Shown here: piece after piece, positions 34,627 to 44,032 of the stretch | Layout: each line of letters starts with the position of its first letter | Position numbering within the stretch: the stretch's first letter is position 1 | Assembly: GCF_012927275.1 (NCBI RefSeq) | Contig: NZ_JABBGG010000001.1 | Span: forward strand, 1-64,000 | Reading direction: 5' to 3' | DNA: 64,000 nt | Source: Massilia polaris | GTDB lineage: Bacteria > Pseudomonadota > Gammaproteobacteria > Burkholderiales > Burkholderiaceae_D | Translations under genes and position numbers: made by a program | Notes under the pieces: model-generated | What the model saw: the letters and a program-made list of their open reading frames with translations, nothing else | Told to the model about the DNA's origin: nothing | The model's database searches: none

Positions 34627-36453
34627 TCAGGTGCCGGTCGCGGCCAGCGACGGTCCTTTGTACCTGAGTGCATCGATTACCAGGCCCAGGGGCCGCGACG
34701 AGTTGCGGCGGCTGGGGTAGTACGCATGCAATCCAGGGAACTTCGGGCACCAGTCTTCCATGACACTGACCAACTGCCCGGCGCGCACATGATGCAGTGC
34801 CATCTCCTCTGGCACGAAAGCCAGGCCGCAGCCGCTCAGCGCGGCGTTCAGCATATGCTGCACAGTGGTGAACGTGGCCTGGCCGCGCACCCGCACTTCC
34901 ATGTCGCGCCCATCATGCTGCAGTTCCCACGCGTAGATTCCCCCGCTGCTCGCAAGGCGCAGCGTGATGCAGTTGTGCTTCATCAGTTCCTGCGGCGAGG
35001 CCGGAGTGCGGTGCCACTCGAAGTAAGCGGGCGAGCCGACGATCATCATGGGTACGTCGGCTGTCAGGCGCACCGCGATCATGTCCTTTTCAACCTGGTC
35101 GCCGTAGCGCACGCCAATGTCATAGCGCTCGGCCGTGATGTCGACCATGCGGGCGATAAACACGGCCAGGATGGCGAATATCAGCATGCCGTACAGGCCT
35201 GAACCGACGCCGCCGAACACCACTTCGCCCAGCTGCATCAGCACCATGGGCACCATCCCGCCCAGCGGCGAGAACGAGTCATGCATGGCGTTGACCGCGC
35301 CGCATGACGCCGCGGTGGTGACGGCGGCGAACAGCGCGGAGGCGCTGATGCCGAAGCGGGTTTCCTTGCCTTCCATGTTGCCGCCGGCCTGGGCCAGGCT
35401 GGCGTGCTGGTCGACGCCCATCGTGGCCAGTACCGGGTGGGCCTGCTGTTCGGCGATCATGATGGCCACCGTGGCGGCGACGAAAATCACGGTCATCGCC
35501 GCCAGCACGGCCCAGCCCTGGCGCTGGTCGCCGACCATGCGGCCGAACGCGAAGCAAAGGCCGGCCGGGATCAGGAAGATCGCCAGCATCTGCATGAAGT
35601 TCGACAGCGCGGTCGGGTTCTCGTAGGGGTGCGCCGAGTTCGCGTTAAAGAAGCCGCCCCCGTTGGTGCCGAGCATCTTGATCGCTTCCTGCGATGCGAC
35701 CGGTCCCATGGCGAGGGTCTGCGTTTTTGCGACGACCGTTTCGGTGACCGCCGCTCCCTTGGCGTCGAGGACAGCCTGGCCGTCGGCAGTCTTGGCCGGC
35801 TGCACCCAGGTGACCGGATCGACCAGGGTCACTTCCTTGTATGGCGCGAAATTCTGGATCACGCCTTGCCCCATCAGGAACACCGAGAACAGCAGCGACA
35901 ACGGCAGCAGCACGTAAAGCGTGCTGCGGGTCAGGTCGACCCAGAAGTTGCCGATCGTATTTGCCGAGCGCGCACTGAAGCCGCGGATCAGCGCGTAAGC
36001 GACCGCGATGCCGGTGGCGGCAGAAAAGAAATTCTGGCACGTCAGGGCGAGCATTTGCGTCAGGTAGCTCATGGTCTGCTCGCCGCTATAGCCCTGCCAG
36101 TTGGTGTTGGCCACGAAGCTGATCGCGGTGTTGAAGGACGAATCTGGCGATACGTTCGCCATGGCCTGCGGGTTGAGCGGCAAGTAGGACTGCAGTCGCT
36201 GCATGCCGTACACGAACAGCGCGCCCAGGCCGTTAAACACCAGCAGGGCGATGGCATAGGCTTTCCAGGTCATGCCCTGGTCGGCCTGGACACCGGCGGC
36301 GCGGTACAGCAGCCGCTCGACGGCGCCAAGCCAGCCGAGGCCGGGGACGCGGCCGCCGTCGCCAACGCGCGCCAGCACAATGCCGAGTGGGTAAGAAAGC
36401 GCCAGCAGCGCGACGAGGAAAGCAGCGAGCAGGAGCGTGGATTGGATGGTCAT
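34627..36453 (-). pseudogene. kdpA: Chimeric kdpA'-'lysR reading frame (truncated kdpA fused to LysR effector domain)
   Basis: A single 608-residue frame. Residues 1-434 are KdpA, from [20 protein letters not shown] through pore-loop regions [29 protein letters not shown] and [18 protein letters not shown] to [18 protein letters not shown]. KdpA normally runs on for about 120-170 more residues, including the fourth pore loop; these are missing. From about base 35151 the frame becomes the C-terminal substrate-binding half of a LysR regulator ([64 protein letters not shown]). kdpB and kdpC do not follow. I read this as a deletion joining two genes in frame; a functional K+ pump is not expected. 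Confidence 0.9.
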
Positions 36454-36542
36454 CACAGGTCCTCCGCTTTCAGCAGGGCGACCAGCAGGTACACCAGCAG
36501 GCAGGCCGAGACGAGCGCGCCGATCACATAGAAGTGGTTCAT
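36453..36542 (-). CDS. kdpF: Kdp K+ pump small subunit KdpF
   Basis: 29 residues, [20 protein letters not shown] and then VALLKAEDL: one membrane helix with the family end LLKAE. KdpF stabilises the KdpFABC complex. Its stop overlaps the kdpA start (TGATG), the normal arrangement. It is intact although kdpA is truncated and kdpBC are gone. Confidence 0.88.
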
Positions 36543-36631
36543 TTTTTCTCTCCCAGGCTGGCGCAGCCGGCGGCAAATGCCACGGTGAGCGCGAACACAA
36601 GCACGAGCCCTCCGATAAATACGAAGTCCAT
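36539..36631 (-). CDS. Small membrane ORF upstream of kdpF
   Basis: 30 residues: [20 protein letters not shown] then [10 protein letters not shown]. One hydrophobic helix and a lipobox-like AAGC. The stop overlaps the kdpF start (ATGA), so coupling is likely. I do not know a named family. Such a leading small ORF could be a leader peptide or an extra subunit; that is inference. Confidence 0.6.
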
Positions 36632-36761: not shown

Positions 36762-37511
36762 TTAGAAAGTCTTGCCGAGGGTGAGGACGAGCGCGTTCTT
36801 GCCAAGGAATTTGCCATTGGCGGGGGATGCATAGGCGGTCCTCGACGCGTTGGTGCCGATCAGCGCGAGTGCGCCTGTGGCGAAGCCGAAGTCCCTGGTC
36901 ACGCCCAGCTTCCAGTCGGTGTAGCTGGCGGCGGAGGTGTTCTTCACGGTCTGGCGGCCGAGGTGCAGGTTGACCACGGTGCCCGGCGCCGCTTCCAGGT
37001 TGGCGCCGATATCGACGTAGCCGCTGTTCTTGCTGTCGACAAAGCCAAACAGCTTGCTTACCCCGTACGAGTATTTGACATAGGCAGGACCGAGGCCGAG
37101 CTGGCCGTAGATTTCGGTCGTGTTCGCGCTGTCGAAACCGGGCACGCCGGCCAGGCCGTTGGACGGATAGACATAGGTCAATACCCCGACGTCATACGCG
37201 ACGCCTTTGGCCAACACGCCGCGCTTGCCGGCATACAGGTCGATCTCGATATCACCGTCGCCGCCGGCATCGCTGGTCCATTTGATGGTCGACGCCCAGG
37301 CGCCCGCGTAGAAGCCGGACGGCGCGTGGGTGTAGTCGATGCCGCCCTGCAGCGCGGGCTGCAAGCGGGTCTGCGAAATGCCGCGGTAGCGGTAGTCCGA
37401 TGCCGCCCCCACGTTGAAGCTGGTTGGGTGGTCGGGCGTCGCTTCTCCTGCGAATGCCGGTCCGGCGGCCACGGAGGCCAATACTGCGCTTGCGAGAATC
37501 AACTTCTTCAT
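36762..37511 (-). CDS. TorF-family putative outer-membrane porin
   Basis: 249 residues. The signal peptide MKKLILASAVLASVAAGPAFA is followed by the family start FNVGAASDYRYRGISQTRLQPALQGGIDY, typical of TorF/Gcw_chp proteins. Alternating hydrophobic strands continue to the end, GKNALVLTLGKTF, with terminal Phe for barrel assembly. The substrate is unknown. The gene's ribosome site lies inside the terminal hairpin of a relict insertion element (37512-37835). Confidence 0.88.
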   Translation of the reverse strand: MKKLILASAVLASVAAGPAFAGEATPDHPTSFNVGAASDYRYRGISQTRLQPALQGGIDYTHAPSGFYAGAWASTIKWTSDAGGDGDIEIDLYAGKRGVLAKGVAYDVGVLTYVYPSNGLAGVPGFDSANTTEIYGQLGLGPAYVKYSYGVSKLFGFVDSKNSGYVDIGANLEAAPGTVVNLHLGRQTVKNTSAASYTDWKLGVTRDFGFATGALALIGTNASRTAYASPANGKFLGKNALVLTLGKTF

Positions 37512-38116: not shown

Positions 38117-39997
38117 GTGTCGAAAGAATCTACTGGCCGGAGCAGCGCGGCGGCGTTGACGGTCGCGGCGATCGGCGTCGTCTATGGCGACATCGGCACC
38201 AGCCCTCTTTATACGATGAAAGAGGTGTTCGCCCCGGCGCACGGCATTGCCGCCTCGCCCGCGAACATCATTGGCGTCGTCTCGCTGATCTTGTGGTGTC
38301 TGGTGATTGTCATTTCGTTGAAATACGTCACCTTGGTATTAAAGGCCGACAATAACGGTGAGGGCGGCATCATGGCCCTGACGGCGCTGGCGCTCAAATC
38401 CGTGACGCAGAATTCCCGTTTTTACTATCCGGTCATGCTGCTCGGCATGATAGGAGCGGGCCTGTTCTTCGGCGATGGCGTCATTACGCCGGCCATCACC
38501 GTGTTGTCTTCGATCGAGGGCCTCCAGGTGGCCACGCCGGCCTTCGAAGCGTATGTGGTCCCCCTGGCCCTGGTCGTGCTGACTGGCCTGTACATGGCGC
38601 AGCGGCGCGGCACCGGTGGCCTCGGCAAATGGTTCGGTCCGATCATGCTGGTCTGGTTTGCGACGCTTGCCGGAATGGGCCTCGTGAATATCGCGGAGAA
38701 CCTGGAGATCCTGGCGGCGTTCAACCCGCTTCACGCATTCGGGTTCCTGCTTCAGAATGGCTGGTTCGCCTTCATTGCATTGGGAGCGGTCGTCCTCGCG
38801 CTGACCGGTGCGGAAGCGCTGTATGCCGATATGGGGCACTTCGGCAAAAAGCCGATCCGGCTTGCCTGGTTCTCGGTGGTCTTTCCCGCCCTCGCGTTGA
38901 ACTACCTCGGGCAAGGCGCAATCTTGCTGTCGAATCCGGAGGCGGTGTCCAATCCGTTCTTCAACCAGCTCGGGGCGTGGAGTATCTATCCCCTGGTGGC
39001 GCTCTCCACGGTCGCCGCCATCGTCGCTTCGCAAGCGACGATATCCGGCGCGTTTTCGGTGGCTCAGCAGGCAATCGCGCTTGGTTTCCTGCCCCGCATG
39101 CGAGTTGCCCATACGTCGTCGCACGAGAAAGGTCAGATCTACATCCCGCTGGTCAACTGGCTGCAGTTCGGGGCTGTCGTGTTCGCAGTAGTGGCATTTG
39201 GTTCATCGACCAACCTGGCGTCCGCTTACGGGATCGCCGCGACCGCCACCATGTTGACGACGACACTGTTGACCTTCTTCGTGGTGAAGTATGGCTGGCA
39301 TTACCACAGTTTTATCGCCGTCGGGGCCACGCTGTTCTTCCTGTTCTTCGACGTGACGCTGTTTGCTTCGACCAGTCTCAAGATCGTGAGCGGCGGCTGG
39401 TTTACGTTACTGATCAGCTTGGTCATGGTGACGATCATGCTTACCTGGCGCAAGGGACGCGAGCTGGTGTTTGAAAATCTCAAGGCCCATCTGATTCCCC
39501 TGCCGGAATTTTTGAGCAGCCTGTTCGCCAGTCCCCCGCACCGGGTCGACGGCACGGCAGTCTTCTTCCGTGCCGAAGGCGACGGCGTGCCGCACGCGAT
39601 GCTGCACAACCTGTTGCACAACAAGGTGCTGCACGACCGCGTCATATTCCTCACAGTCCAATCGCTGGACATCCCGGCCGTGAAGCCGGAAAGCCGCGTG
39701 ACGGTCGTGTCGCTGGGGCACAACTGTTTCCAGGTAAACCTTTGTTACGGATTCATCGAAGAGCGCAACGTACCGGCTGGCCTGGTACTGTGCGCGGCTG
39801 CGGGCCTCGCTTTCGATGCAATGGAAACGTCCTACTTCATCGCCCGGCATAACGTCATCGCCACACCTGGATCCGGGATGGCCATGTGGCGCGAAAACCT
39901 GTACGCCGCCATGGCGCGTAATGCGCGCGACGCCGCTGATTATTTCAGGTTGCCATCCAACCGGGTCATCGAGCTCGGTACACAAGTGGAGATTTGA
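38117..39997 (+). CDS. kup: Low-affinity K+ uptake permease Kup
   Basis: 626 residues from a GTG with AAGGAGAG upstream. The N-terminal signature AIGVVYGDIGTSPLYTMKEVF is characteristic of Kup/HAK/KT. About twelve membrane helices follow, with ADNNGEGGIMALTAL, GMIGAGLFFGDGVITPAITVLS and GAEALYADMGHFGKKPIRLAW. The cytosolic C-terminus (~residue 455 on) contains HNLLHNKVLHDRVIFLTVQ. It is a K+/H+ symporter. It is probably the working K+ importer of this segment, since kdp is broken. Confidence 0.96.
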   Translation: MSKESTGRSSAAALTVAAIGVVYGDIGTSPLYTMKEVFAPAHGIAASPANIIGVVSLILWCLVIVISLKYVTLVLKADNNGEGGIMALTALALKSVTQNSRFYYPVMLLGMIGAGLFFGDGVITPAITVLSSIEGLQVATPAFEAYVVPLALVVLTGLYMAQRRGTGGLGKWFGPIMLVWFATLAGMGLVNIAENLEILAAFNPLHAFGFLLQNGWFAFIALGAVVLALTGAEALYADMGHFGKKPIRLAWFSVVFPALALNYLGQGAILLSNPEAVSNPFFNQLGAWSIYPLVALSTVAAIVASQATISGAFSVAQQAIALGFLPRMRVAHTSSHEKGQIYIPLVNWLQFGAVVFAVVAFGSSTNLASAYGIAATATMLTTTLLTFFVVKYGWHYHSFIAVGATLFFLFFDVTLFASTSLKIVSGGWFTLLISLVMVTIMLTWRKGRELVFENLKAHLIPLPEFLSSLFASPPHRVDGTAVFFRAEGDGVPHAMLHNLLHNKVLHDRVIFLTVQSLDIPAVKPESRVTVVSLGHNCFQVNLCYGFIEERNVPAGLVLCAAAGLAFDAMETSYFIARHNVIATPGSGMAMWRENLYAAMARNARDAADYFRLPSNRVIELGTQVEI

Positions 39998-40161: not shown

Positions 40162-40770
40162 ATGGCGATCCGTTATGGCTGTTTCTTCAGTTATGCCCAT
40201 GGCCGCTATGAGTTGATGAACAGGTTCAAGAATGCGCTGTCGGATGCGATCCGCTGCTACCTGGAACCTTACTTCGACAATGAGAACGAGCTGTTCATCG
40301 ATACCGAGCAGCTGGGCGGCGGCGACGACATCGACCGCCGCATCGCGCGCGCCATGTGCGAGAGCGTGGCGATGATCATGATCTACACCCCCAAGTACGA
40401 ATCGCACCCCTACACGCGGCGCGAGTTCGCCGCCATGCAGTTGCTCGAAGCGGAGCGCAGCCAGTGGTACGAGCTGCCCAGCCGCCTGATCATCCCGGTG
40501 ATCATGACCAGGCACCCCGACCGCCTGCCGGCCCAGATCGCCGAGTCGGCCATGTATGTCGACTTCTCCAATTTCACGATGGCGACCGGCGACATGATGG
40601 CGAATCCGGACTTTCTCCCCGATCTAAAGAAGATCGTGGATCGCATCGCCATGCACTACGAGTATCAAAAAAAGCATATGCCGGCGAGCCATAACTGCAA
40701 CCAATTTGTGCTCCCCGATGTCCCACCTGCATGGCGCGACATTCCGGATACAACTTTCCCAAAAATATGA
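40162..40770 (+). CDS. TIR-domain protein of a TIR/NTPase-TPR operon
   Basis: 202 residues from the ATG at 40162, set by GGGGAGG 5 bases upstream; a longer frame to 40105 is not family-like. The domain starts at once with the box-1 strand YGCFFSYAHGRYE, then FIDTEQLGGGDDIDRRIARAM, MIMIYTPKYESHPYTRREFAAM and SRLIIPVIMTRHPDRLP, the order of a TIR fold. Glu88 in YTRREF is where the catalytic glutamate of NAD-cleaving TIR domains lies. The C-terminal ~50 residues are an unassigned tail. No membrane segment or signal. It is followed 9 bases later by the NTPase-like/TPR gene, so they form an operon. NADase activity is an inference. Confidence 0.82.
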   Translation: MAIRYGCFFSYAHGRYELMNRFKNALSDAIRCYLEPYFDNENELFIDTEQLGGGDDIDRRIARAMCESVAMIMIYTPKYESHPYTRREFAAMQLLEAERSQWYELPSRLIIPVIMTRHPDRLPAQIAESAMYVDFSNFTMATGDMMANPDFLPDLKKIVDRIAMHYEYQKKHMPASHNCNQFVLPDVPPAWRDIPDTTFPKI

Positions 40771-40779
40771 GGAGCATTA

Positions 40780-43224
40780 ATGGAACTCAATCGAATTACG
40801 CTTCCGCCGATCACCGCTCCCGGCGAGGTGACCACGTTTTATTCCTTCGAGAGCGGAACCGCGCGCAGCGTGGCGTTGTCGAACATGGCCGTACTGCTGG
40901 CTGGGCGCCAGAACGCCACAGTGCCTGTACTGATGATCGACTGGGACACCGAGTCGCCCGGACTGCACCATTTTTTCGACCGGCGCGCAGAAAAGCCGGG
41001 CTTGCTCGAATATTTCCAGGCCTGCCGCGACCACCTGCGCCTGCTGGCCGGCACCAGCGGCGCCGATGACGACGCGCTGGCCCGCCGCGTCCTCGAATCG
41101 ATCGACTGGGAACGGTATGTCGAACGGGTGGACGACAGCCGTCCGCTGTATTTGATGCGCGCCGGCCGCTTCGATGAAACCTACGGCGAGCGCGCCCACG
41201 GCATGGACTGGGACAGCCTGTTCGCCGCCTGCCCGGCCTTGTTCCGCTCGTTTGGCGACTTCATGTCGCGCAAGTTCCGCCATGTGCTGATCGATGCGCG
41301 CAGCGGCCGCTCGGCCGCCGTCAGCATCTGCACCGCGCTGTTGCCGCGCAAGCTGGTCGGCCTGTTCACGCCCAACCAGCGCAGCCTCGAAGGGCTGGCC
41401 GGCGTGGTCAACCGCGCCATCGACTACCGCTGCAGCCATGAAGAAGCGCAGCGCCCGCTGATGGTGTATCCGCTGCCGGCGCTGGTCGACAGCGCCGACT
41501 GCGAGCGCCGCGTGCAGTGGCGCCGCGGCGATGCGCTGCGCGGCAGCACCGGCTACCAGCCCGTGCTCGAGCGCCTGCTGGCGCAGTCGTACGGCCTGTC
41601 GCAACTGTCGCTCGACAGCTACCTCGATGAAATCCAGCTGCAGCAAACCGCCGCCATGTCGGGCGGTGCGCCGCTGCCGCACACGCGCGGCCACGGCGCC
41701 GACCGCTTCTCGCTCGAGCGTAGCTTCGACACCTTGCTCGGCTGGATGGAGCTCGACCGTTTCCCGTGGCAGTCGCGCAGCGAAATCGCGCTGCTGGGCG
41801 CGATCGCGGCCGCGCGCGCGCAGGCCGGCGACAACCTGGCCGGCCCGTCGCTGCTGCCGCTGGCGCGCGACCTCGCCGGCCTCGGCGACCTTTACCGCGA
41901 TAATGGCAGGGAAGTGCAGGCGCGCGAATTTATCGAGGAAAGCCTGACGATCCGCCAGCGCATGCTGGGCAACGACCATCCCGATACGCGCGCCGGCTGC
42001 GCCAGCCTGGCCGCGCTGCTGCGCGATTCGGGCAAGCTCGATGACGCCCGCGAACTGTACGAGCGGCTGGCGCGCGATTGCGCCCGCCTGCTGGGCGAGC
42101 ACAATGCCGAAACGCTGGCGGCGCGCTCCGGCCTTGCATCCGCGCTGGCGCAGCTGGGCGAGTTCGACCAGGCGCTCGGCCTGCACGCCGCCATCACCCG
42201 CACCTGCGAAGAGCGCTTCGGCAACGACCACGTGCTGACGCTCAACAGCTACGCCGGCCAGGCACAGACGCTGGCGCGCGAACGCGAATTCAGCCGCGCG
42301 CGCATGCTGTACGAACTGGTGCTCGATGGCCGCCAGCGGCTGCTCGGCAACGAGCACGAAGACACCTTGCGCTGCGCCCAGCAGCTGGCGGTGGTGCTGT
42401 CCGACCTGGGCGACATGGCCAACGCCAAAAAGCTGCAGCTGGACGTGGTCGCCGCGCGCGAACGCCATGCCGGGCCGGACCATCCGGCCACGGTGCGGGC
42501 GCGCGAGACGCTGGCCGAGATCCTGGCCGGCCTGGGCGATATCCCGGCGGTGCGCGCGTTGCAGGAAGAGCTTGCCCGCACGCGCGAGCGCAAGCTCGGC
42601 GCCGAGCATCCGGAAACCCTCAGCATCCAGCTGAGCCTGGCGACGACGCTGGGCATGCAGGGCGAACTCGACGCCGCCTGCGTGCTGCAGCAGCGCGTGG
42701 TCGAAACGCAGGAACGCATGTACGGCGCGGACAGTCCGCAGACCCTGCACAGCAAGAAGATGCTGGCGAAAACGCTCAGCGAGCAGGGCCACACGCTGGA
42801 TGCGCGCCGGCTGGAGGAAGCGGTGGCCCATCCAGCCGACCGCCAGCTGGCGTCGCGCGCGATGGTGGCGGGACCGCACGCGTCGCAGGGCAGCCGGTTG
42901 CACTACGCGCCGGCCGGCCCGCAGGAGCGCGACGGCGCCGGCCAGCACCTGCAAACGCTGGATGACAAGCTGGAGCAGCTGCAGCAACTGATCGACAGCC
43001 GCAGCGACGGCGAGGCGCGCGAACTGGCCGACAGCCTGCGCAAGTCGGTGCTGCGCCCCAGTGTTGCCCATCCATTAAGAAAGCGCGGCGTGGCGATGAT
43101 CCGCAAGGTCTACACGCGCGACGGCGACAAGGACGCGCTGCTGTCGTTCGTGCAAGACGAAGTGGCCCTGCTCGACGCCCACCTGAACCAGGCCGCGGGC
43201 GGGAGGGCGGTCACGGCCGAGTAA
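40780..43224 (+). CDS. MinD/ParA-like NTPase domain fused to kinesin-light-chain-type TPRs
   Basis: 814 residues with TGAGGAG just before the start. Residues ~15-300 resemble a MinD/ParA-type (SIMIBI) domain: TTFYSFESGTARSVALSNMAVLL at 18-40, then VLMIDWDTESPGLHHFF at 50-66 and KFRHVLIDARSGRS further on. In relatives the loop reads KGG-x-G-R-S; here Glu24, Ser25 and Ala28 replace the usual K, G and G, so nucleotide binding may be lost. Residues ~350-690 are tandem 42-residue TPRs with the repeated LG-x2-H/HP-x-T pattern. A charged C-terminal tail of ~100 residues follows. The layout resembles FxsT-type TPR proteins that accompany TIR-like FxsC proteins. Confidence 0.8.
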   Translation: MELNRITLPPITAPGEVTTFYSFESGTARSVALSNMAVLLAGRQNATVPVLMIDWDTESPGLHHFFDRRAEKPGLLEYFQACRDHLRLLAGTSGADDDALARRVLESIDWERYVERVDDSRPLYLMRAGRFDETYGERAHGMDWDSLFAACPALFRSFGDFMSRKFRHVLIDARSGRSAAVSICTALLPRKLVGLFTPNQRSLEGLAGVVNRAIDYRCSHEEAQRPLMVYPLPALVDSADCERRVQWRRGDALRGSTGYQPVLERLLAQSYGLSQLSLDSYLDEIQLQQTAAMSGGAPLPHTRGHGADRFSLERSFDTLLGWMELDRFPWQSRSEIALLGAIAAARAQAGDNLAGPSLLPLARDLAGLGDLYRDNGREVQAREFIEESLTIRQRMLGNDHPDTRAGCASLAALLRDSGKLDDARELYERLARDCARLLGEHNAETLAARSGLASALAQLGEFDQALGLHAAITRTCEERFGNDHVLTLNSYAGQAQTLAREREFSRARMLYELVLDGRQRLLGNEHEDTLRCAQQLAVVLSDLGDMANAKKLQLDVVAARERHAGPDHPATVRARETLAEILAGLGDIPAVRALQEELARTRERKLGAEHPETLSIQLSLATTLGMQGELDAACVLQQRVVETQERMYGADSPQTLHSKKMLAKTLSEQGHTLDARRLEEAVAHPADRQLASRAMVAGPHASQGSRLHYAPAGPQERDGAGQHLQTLDDKLEQLQQLIDSRSDGEARELADSLRKSVLRPSVAHPLRKRGVAMIRKVYTRDGDKDALLSFVQDEVALLDAHLNQAAGGRAVTAE

Positions 43225-43294: not shown

Positions 43295-44032
43295 ATGCGA
43301 ATTCTAATCAGTAACGACGACGGCTATCTGGCCCCCGGTATCAATGCACTGGCCGATGCGCTCGCATCGGTGGCCGACATTGTGGTGGTGGCGCCCGACA
43401 GCAACCGCTCGGGCGCGTCCAACTCACTGTCCCTCGACCGGCCGCTGTCGGTGACGCGGGCCGCCAACGGATTCTATTTCGTCAACGGCACGCCGACCGA
43501 CTGCGTCCACATCGCGCTGACCGGCATGCTCGACTACCGGCCCGACCTGATTGTTTCCGGCATCAACAACGGCCAGAACATGGGCGACGACACCTTGTAT
43601 TCGGGCACCGTCGCCGCCGCCACCGAAGGTTTCCTGTTCGGGATCCCGGCAATCGCCTTCTCGCAAGTCGAATACGGCTGGGCGCATATCGACGCCGCTG
43701 CCAAGGTGGCGCGCGAGCTGGTGCTGCGCCGCTTCGACGAGCTGCCGTCGCCGTACCTGCTGAACGTGAATATCCCCAACCGTCCGTACGAACAGCTGAG
43801 CACGATGGCCGCGACCCGCCTCGGGCGCCGCCACCAGGCCGAGCCGGTCATTCGCGCGCAAGACCCGCGCGGGCGCGAGATTTTCTGGATCGGGCCGCCG
43901 GGCGCGACCCGCGACGCCGGCGAGGGCACCGACTTCCACGCGACCGCCCAGGGGCAGGTCTCGATCACGCCCTTGCAGATCGACCTTACCCACAAGCTCC
44001 AGCTCGATTTGCTGGCCAAGGGACTCGCATGA
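43295..44032 (+). CDS. surE: 5'/3'-nucleotidase SurE
   Basis: 245 residues. The metal-binding start [16 protein letters not shown], then [56 protein letters not shown] and [10 protein letters not shown] are all canonical. It hydrolyses nucleoside monophosphates and is linked to stationary-phase survival. It opens the conserved surE-pcm-nlpD-rpoS block and overlaps pcm by four bases (ATGA). Confidence 0.97.

Follow-up and report, generated by a model that had tools for sequence, protein, structure and literature searches.

The question raised by the first 64,000 nucleotides of contig NZ_JABBGG010000001.1 of Massilia polaris (assembly GCF_012927275.1; hereafter, the window) is what a gene pair encoding a TIR protein and a ParA-like/TPR partner (40162..43224, forward strand) is doing at a locus made of housekeeping genes. 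Bacterial TIR enzymes have been studied mostly as patchy, mobile effectors of phage defence. The pair analyzed here is near-universal and vertically inherited in the Telluria group of Oxalobacteraceae, and a mobile defence island is an unlikely explanation for it. The reading that we prefer, at a probability of roughly 45%, is that of a domesticated, catalytically intact TIR effector under the control of its ParA-like/TPR partner, acting as a density- or stress-linked NAD switch, gained once and passed on by vertical descent. No paper on the pair as a system was found in the literature searched, which covered few subscription journals.

Based on a tblastn-type genome search, the TIR was matched in all 17 genomes of the source genus (one copy cut by a contig end and one in two pieces), in 57 of 62 genomes of a second genus, and in all 74 genomes of a third, one of them holding a remnant. 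At the family level (Oxalobacteraceae) 165 of 392 sampled genomes gave a match; these fell into 6 of 44 genera, with matches only at E ~1e-3 in one genus. In the phylum sample 2 of 398 genomes were true holders, with two additional weak matches corresponding to a TIR-NACHT protein and a TIR-WD-repeat protein. Named genomes yielded 141 TIR loci, the best 80 of which were used for the counts of names and synteny. These 80 belonged to Massilia, Telluria, Duganella, Rugamonas, Pseudoduganella and Janthinobacterium, together with some unplaced metagenome-assembled genomes and one locus labelled Herbaspirillum sp. SJZ107 (L191), a label that is probably wrong; on the tree this locus was placed inside Massilia. 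No match to the TIR was found in 72,556 plasmids, in 50,697 phages or in viral contigs.

The position of the pair was equally constant. Upstream of it, dinG and/or qor were found in 80/80 loci, the partner gene adjoined the TIR gene in 78/80 (the remaining two being contig ends), and surE lay 3' of the pair in 74/80, the other six loci stopping at a contig end. The reading frames and the order of both genes were preserved in relatives, indicating that the pair is not a product of chance. In an outgroup set of 19 loci from family members lacking the pair, dinG or qor adjoined surE in 11, forming an empty site, neither gene was within 1.5 kb in the other eight, and the pair was detected in none (0/19). 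The empty site in the outgroup and the fixed locus within the group point to one gain in the ancestor of the group, the simplest history being a single gain between qor and surE in the Telluria-group ancestor. Losses were few and of differing kinds, and they show that the module is dispensable: qor adjoins surE in one genome (G134) and dinG adjoins surE in three (G160, G240 and G268), in another (G387) a TPR fragment is all that remains of the module, and in a further one (G395, locus L255, from 5616 downwards on the minus strand) the module has been shortened naturally by an internal deletion that leaves residues 1-69 of the TIR fused in frame to a piece of the TPR region.

The sequence-only reading had taken the pair for accessory genes landed between kup and surE, and had predicted defence islands or variable flanks around it. 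Neither idea survived the comparison, as relatives keep the pair without kup at that place, the flanks are housekeeping genes, and plasmid, phage and viral-contig copies were missing from the collections searched. In fact kup (38117..39997, forward strand; Pfam K_trans) is the upstream neighbour in this window only; it was found beside the pair in none of 40 loci from relatives and none of the 80 named loci, two sets with partly common genomes, and kup, not the TIR pair, is the newcomer in this window. The insertion of an accessory pair between kup and surE was thus rejected. The same reading had named an unvarying presence of the pair at one locus throughout its relatives as a refutation of an immune-type system; the shared locus was confirmed for nearly all relatives, and what variation there is concerns the partner (P-loop, TPR number) and a few losses, with none in position.

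The TIR protein (P0001, 202 aa; 40162..40770, forward strand) passed the Pfam TIR_2 cut-off (42.3 bits, E=1.3e-10; cut-off 28 bits) and is the sole TIR_2 match in the M. polaris genome (30 contigs). The claim, made from the sequence, that it carries a glutamate in the catalytic position was borne out: Glu88 (codon 40423..40425, forward strand), which corresponds to the glutamate used for catalysis by TIR NADases, was kept in 109/109 distinct homologues (38/38 in a smaller set), and the TRRE stretch around it was likewise invariant in all 109. Weak profile matches to two TIRs of bacteria, 7uxr (E 0.67) and 4c7m (E 0.98), aligned Glu88 with the glutamate of their W-x-x-x-E motif. In the predicted structure it lay within the helix of residues 83-99, consistent with the alpha-C helix location of the catalytic residue in TIR NADases. 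In a fold search with this model, the TIRs of SPARTA, AbTir and SARM1 were among the nearest. The protein is most likely a catalytic-type enzyme, predicted to cleave NAD(P) or to produce an NAD-derived signal, and immune-type TIR chemistry is possible.

The partner (P0002, 814 aa; 40780..43224, forward strand) begins 9 bases past the TIR stop codon, with GGAG before its ATG. Its architecture agreed with the MinD/ParA-like and kinesin-light-chain-type composition read earlier from the letters, apart from a P-loop that proved degenerate. The ParA-like domain (residues ~15-330, 40822..41769, outer border set by eye) was modelled as strands alternating with helices, and matched NCBIfam AAA_KGGVGR (NF047398, a MinD/ParA-like variant) over residues 17-211 with 79.8 bits, under the cut-off of 90. 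Homologues L069, L091 and L203 passed that cut-off (123.3, 119.1 and 113.7 bits, respectively) and L106 failed it (54.9 bits). The TPR array (residues ~356-683, 41845..42828), delimited from Pfam matches and the model, consists of seven repeats of kinesin-light-chain type; TPR_10 and TPR_12 matched seven stretches each, and the profile match to kinesin light chain 1 reached E=1e-33. A C-terminal helical segment in the model (residues ~727-806, 42958..43197) is kept in the longer homologues. No NB-ARC/AP-ATPase domain was detected in the partner by the Pfam scan at E up to 1. In five Massilia partners (L155, L161, L168, L179 and L106) a hypervariable, partly proline-rich insertion was observed past the P-loop region, after the first strand-helix unit.

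Variation was concentrated in the partner. At the P-loop (residues 24-30, 40849..40869) the window protein reads ESGTARS, without either P-loop lysine and outside the KGGxGR[ST] pattern, where most Duganella, Rugamonas and Janthinobacterium homologues read KGGTGRT. Among 64 scored loci, 38 had a degenerate P-loop, 23 were of the K..R state and three, of Pseudoduganella type, read RGG.GC. On a tree of 66 loci built on dinG, surE and pcm, a single change (branch support 100) accounted for all 38 degenerate P-loops, a one-time decay at the root of Massilia/Telluria. A Duganella-genus copy off the tree (L094), with QDGCGRS, represents a separate further change. The intact KGG.GR motif itself lacks the usual P-loop lysine, so that ATPase activity is uncertain even in the intact lineages. 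The number of TPRs also varied across 73 partner proteins, with none in 13 and from two to eight in the others. Since both the P-loop and the TPRs can be lost with the TIR intact, the ParA-like fold is the probable contact of the TIR, and the TPRs may form an adjustable sensor face.

In order to describe descent and selection, protein distances at 64 loci and ratios of non-synonymous to synonymous substitution (dN/dS) were compared with those of the neighbouring genes. Correlations with dinG distances were r=0.87 for the TIR, 0.90 for pcm, 0.83 for the partner (NTPase) and 0.79 for surE, values that support vertical descent of the TIR. Median dN/dS values, calculated after saturated pairs were dropped, from those whose dinG sequences were close and whose dS lay between 0.1 and an upper limit of 1.2 or 1.3, were 0.052 for dinG, 0.069 for the TIR, 0.098 for surE, 0.153 for pcm and 0.167 for the NTPase. 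The TIR is therefore constrained about as tightly as the housekeeping helicase gene dinG, and the partner is looser and still constrained; this comparison gave no sign of diversifying selection on the TIR. Within the K..R clade the values were 0.074 (TIR), 0.194 (NTPase) and 0.076 (dinG), and in the clade with degenerate P-loops 0.110, 0.326 and 0.125, respectively. A relaxation specific to the partner after P-loop decay does not follow from these figures, as dinG climbs in step (0.076 to 0.125).

A link to quorum sensing comes from Janthinobacterium sp. HH01, in which Jab_2c19720, a 'TIR domain containing protein', showed a log-fold change of -2.29 in the JAI-1 synthase mutant (RNA-seq, Table 3 of PMC5080296). 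According to the same source, a JAI-1 motif is present at this gene, and a comparison of 29 genomes of Janthinobacterium, Duganella and Pseudoduganella assigned it to the class 'core genome minus Marseille' (PMC5080296). In our data, 34 genomes of Duganella/Janthinobacterium type, chosen as pair carriers, were scanned for TIR_2, and in 21 of them the TIR of the pair was the sole such gene, so that a core TIR_2 gene must be that of the pair unless the annotation meant another TIR family. Deduced from the core class and these counts, Jab_2c19720 is very probably the TIR of this pair. This dependence, seen in a single strain, hints that the gene serves at high cell density, a setting in which it can be of advantage for individual cells to stop growing or to die. 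A role of the JAI-1 motif as a group-wide promoter element was considered and rejected; the Massilia with the three exact copies are close relatives of each other, and mononucleotide shuffling gave an expectation of 0.004 per region. A scan for sigma-70-type promoters and terminators gave nothing beyond the chance level, and upstream of the TIR gene it showed no promoter-like site.

Under the preferred reading of a domesticated NAD switch, a Telluria-group ancestor would have acquired a two-gene signalling module once, at the qor-surE junction. Its TIR would be a catalytically competent enzyme that cleaves NAD(P) or makes an NAD-derived signal, and the co-translated partner would bind it, holding it off or assembling it. 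Release or nucleation of the TIR could follow a change at the TPR face of the partner or, in lineages with an intact P-loop, a change in nucleotide state; in Massilia/Telluria the nucleotide switch would have been dismantled and the scaffold function alone retained. At high density or under stationary-phase stress, the module would bring down the NAD level of individual cells or signal them to stop growing, and protection of kin from phage or other damage may be one benefit. Several observations weigh against this account. Many TIRs with this glutamate are scaffolds, and non-enzymatic TIRs (MyD88, the IL-1R family) appeared at similar Z in the same fold list. The correlation between TIR and NTPase distances (r=0.69) was weaker than that of each protein with dinG, and the partner of Massilia sp. 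YIM B02443 (L159) carries, beside an intact TIR, an in-frame stop about 67 codons in, which may be real or a sequencing error. The JAI-1 motif upstream of the TIR was exact in 3/81 loci and present with at most one mismatch in 28/81, and is absent in the window. In the quorum-sensing study, the partner gene is missing from the published HH01 list, and the TIR gene from that of strain HH102 (PMC5080296).

The alternative that survives best, and one we consider rather unlikely, is anti-phage defence proper, that is, abortive infection by NAD depletion with the TPR protein as sensor, in a system fixed vertically and not mobile. The catalytic-type TIR, with SPARTA and AbTir among its nearest folds, fits this idea, as do the occasional losses, which resemble those of other defence genes. 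Control of defence by quorum sensing is also known from other bacteria. KGGVGR domains occur elsewhere in PDC-M28B and beside NACHT and Mrr: one relative (L110) scored 596 bits as PADLOC candidate PDC-M28B, and elsewhere the domain is part of a fusion with Mrr nuclease and NACHT domains. The match of our partner to PDC-M28B was restricted to residues 16-71 (E=4.8e-7). For the TIR, the best PADLOC match was at E=0.0081 in the window and none was below 5e-5 in the homologues tried; no PADLOC system was matched, in line with the earlier proposal of an undescribed system. A single fixed locus among housekeeping genes, outside defence islands, with no plasmid, phage or viral-contig copy, and a TIR free of diversifying selection, speak against this alternative.

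Unlikely, and placed by us slightly below defence, is a non-enzymatic TIR serving as an assembly domain only, within a housekeeping signalling complex scaffolded by the ParA-like/TPR protein. The core distribution and strong purifying selection would suit such a complex, the lack of a working P-loop in 38/64 scored partners is scaffold-like, and scaffold TIRs such as MyD88 score equally high in the fold search. However, the invariance of Glu88 and its TRRE surroundings in all 109 homologues goes beyond what a pure scaffold needs, and variability within the pair is found on the side of the partner.

It is highly improbable that the pair is a divergent form of FxSxx-COOH, the actinobacterial system with FxsC and FxsT. 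Like the pair, this system combines a TIR-like protein that stands alone with a TPR protein of large size (NF040588, NF040586), and its models were the best curated matches of the two proteins: FxsC_Nterm with 38.4 bits for the TIR and FxSxx_TPR with 199.5 bits for the partner. Both scores are below the curated cut-offs (130 and 300 bits, respectively), as are those of five TIR homologues (37.0-40.9 bits) and of the partner homologues (118-163 bits), so membership was rejected, and the earlier view of a pair like FxsC/FxsT yet outside the described system was upheld. Unlike FxSxx-COOH, the pair has no AP-ATPase domain and no convincing peptide gene, and occupies a fixed housekeeping locus in Oxalobacteraceae, Betaproteobacteria-type hosts. 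Two open reading frames (ORFs) of 25-150 aa ending in F-x-S-x-x were found in the 64 kb (37712, plus strand; 60579, minus strand), a count made without a chance control, and neither adjoins the pair; CxxxCxxC, looked for as a mark of the radical SAM maturase FxsB, was present in five window ORF segments of at least 150 aa, the one that was family-scanned being RlmN. In favour of a relationship, PMC7159879 notes that some related proteins of AP-ATPase/TPR type contain a MinD/ParA-like domain that is inactive, and describes related combinations of TIR, AP-ATPase/TPR and inactive MinD/ParA in conflict systems. By analogy, the pair may be a variant of these combinations with unusual core inheritance. 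Finally, a decaying relic without present function in Massilia is scarcely credible: P-loop loss, TPR loss in 13/73 proteins, absence from 5/62 genomes, one remnant in 74 and one nonsense codon would fit, but in the degenerate clade the dN/dS of the TIR (0.110) is below that of dinG (0.125) and that of the NTPase (0.326) is well under 1.

Other known systems differ from the pair in their partners. In contrast to SPARTA TIR-APAZ, AbTir and SARM1, which its TIR model resembles, the pair lacks an APAZ/Ago, STAND or SAM/ARM partner and has a ParA-like/TPR protein instead. The likeness of the TIR to Thoeris is weak (NCBIfam ThcB4, 22.3 bits for a cut-off of 220; PADLOC ThsB, E=0.031), no ThsA-type partner lies beside it, and the matches of the partner are confined to KGGVGR and TPR models. 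With KGGVGR ATPases the partner shares its N-terminal domain, for which Duganella, Rugamonas and Janthinobacterium-type homologues are over the cut-off (113.7-123.3 bits), whereas the window protein is under it and has a degenerate P-loop. TIR-KGGVGR pairs outside the group were looked for and not found: a profile of this TIR gave no match (E up to 1) in the ~1.5 kb around any of 35 other KGGVGR loci, a search that a divergent TIR would escape. The KGGVGR model was over its cut-off in 37/398 phylum genomes and matched 397 of them at E <=0.001, a level that ordinary ParA proteins reach. Some phylum members have several KGGVGR proteins each (e.g. G445, G468, G484 and G500; among L110-L139), fusions join the domain to an Mrr nuclease and NACHT (L138) or to a Sll1717-type ATPase (L257), and one pair-holding genome (G033) encodes, on a different contig (C3; L124/L046), an additional KGGVGR protein with a strong score of 177.9 bits.

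Regarding the surroundings of the pair, surE (43295..44032, forward strand; Pfam SurE) is the fixed downstream neighbour, outside the pair. Pfam confirmed K_trans, SurE, PCMT, M23/LysM (nlpD-like), a sigma-70 factor (rpoS-like), tRNA_U5-meth_tr (rlmD-like) and a DinG-like helicase among the neighbours, and a zinc-binding dehydrogenase, here named qor, in locus L054; the names dinG, qor, nlpD, rpoS and rlmD are putative, having been assigned by reading of family matches. A 'PP2C' ORF near the locus had no Pfam match at E <=1e-8. In the window, the place of the relatives' qor is occupied by kup, a TorF-like porin ORF (36762-37511) and an ORF on the minus strand (34627-36600) in which KdpA (profile positions 2-388 of 548) runs in frame into a LysR substrate-binding domain, represented by its C-terminal portion, a fusion that looks like a deletion junction.

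Tentatively, and with some doubt, the history can be put in a more specific form: an immune-type TIR enzyme may have been domesticated as core, density-controlled physiology across an entire lineage, its active site frozen, with the nucleotide switch of its partner dismantled in one branch and intact in the other. If true, the group would offer a natural experiment on how a TIR effector can be controlled independently of NTP. Lineage-long preservation of a TIR with intact catalysis, at one locus and with one partner, would mean that such effectors can turn into ordinary regulated physiology, and the two P-loop states, the presence or absence of TPRs and the natural losses make the roles of nucleotide binding and of the TPRs testable in culturable soil bacteria.

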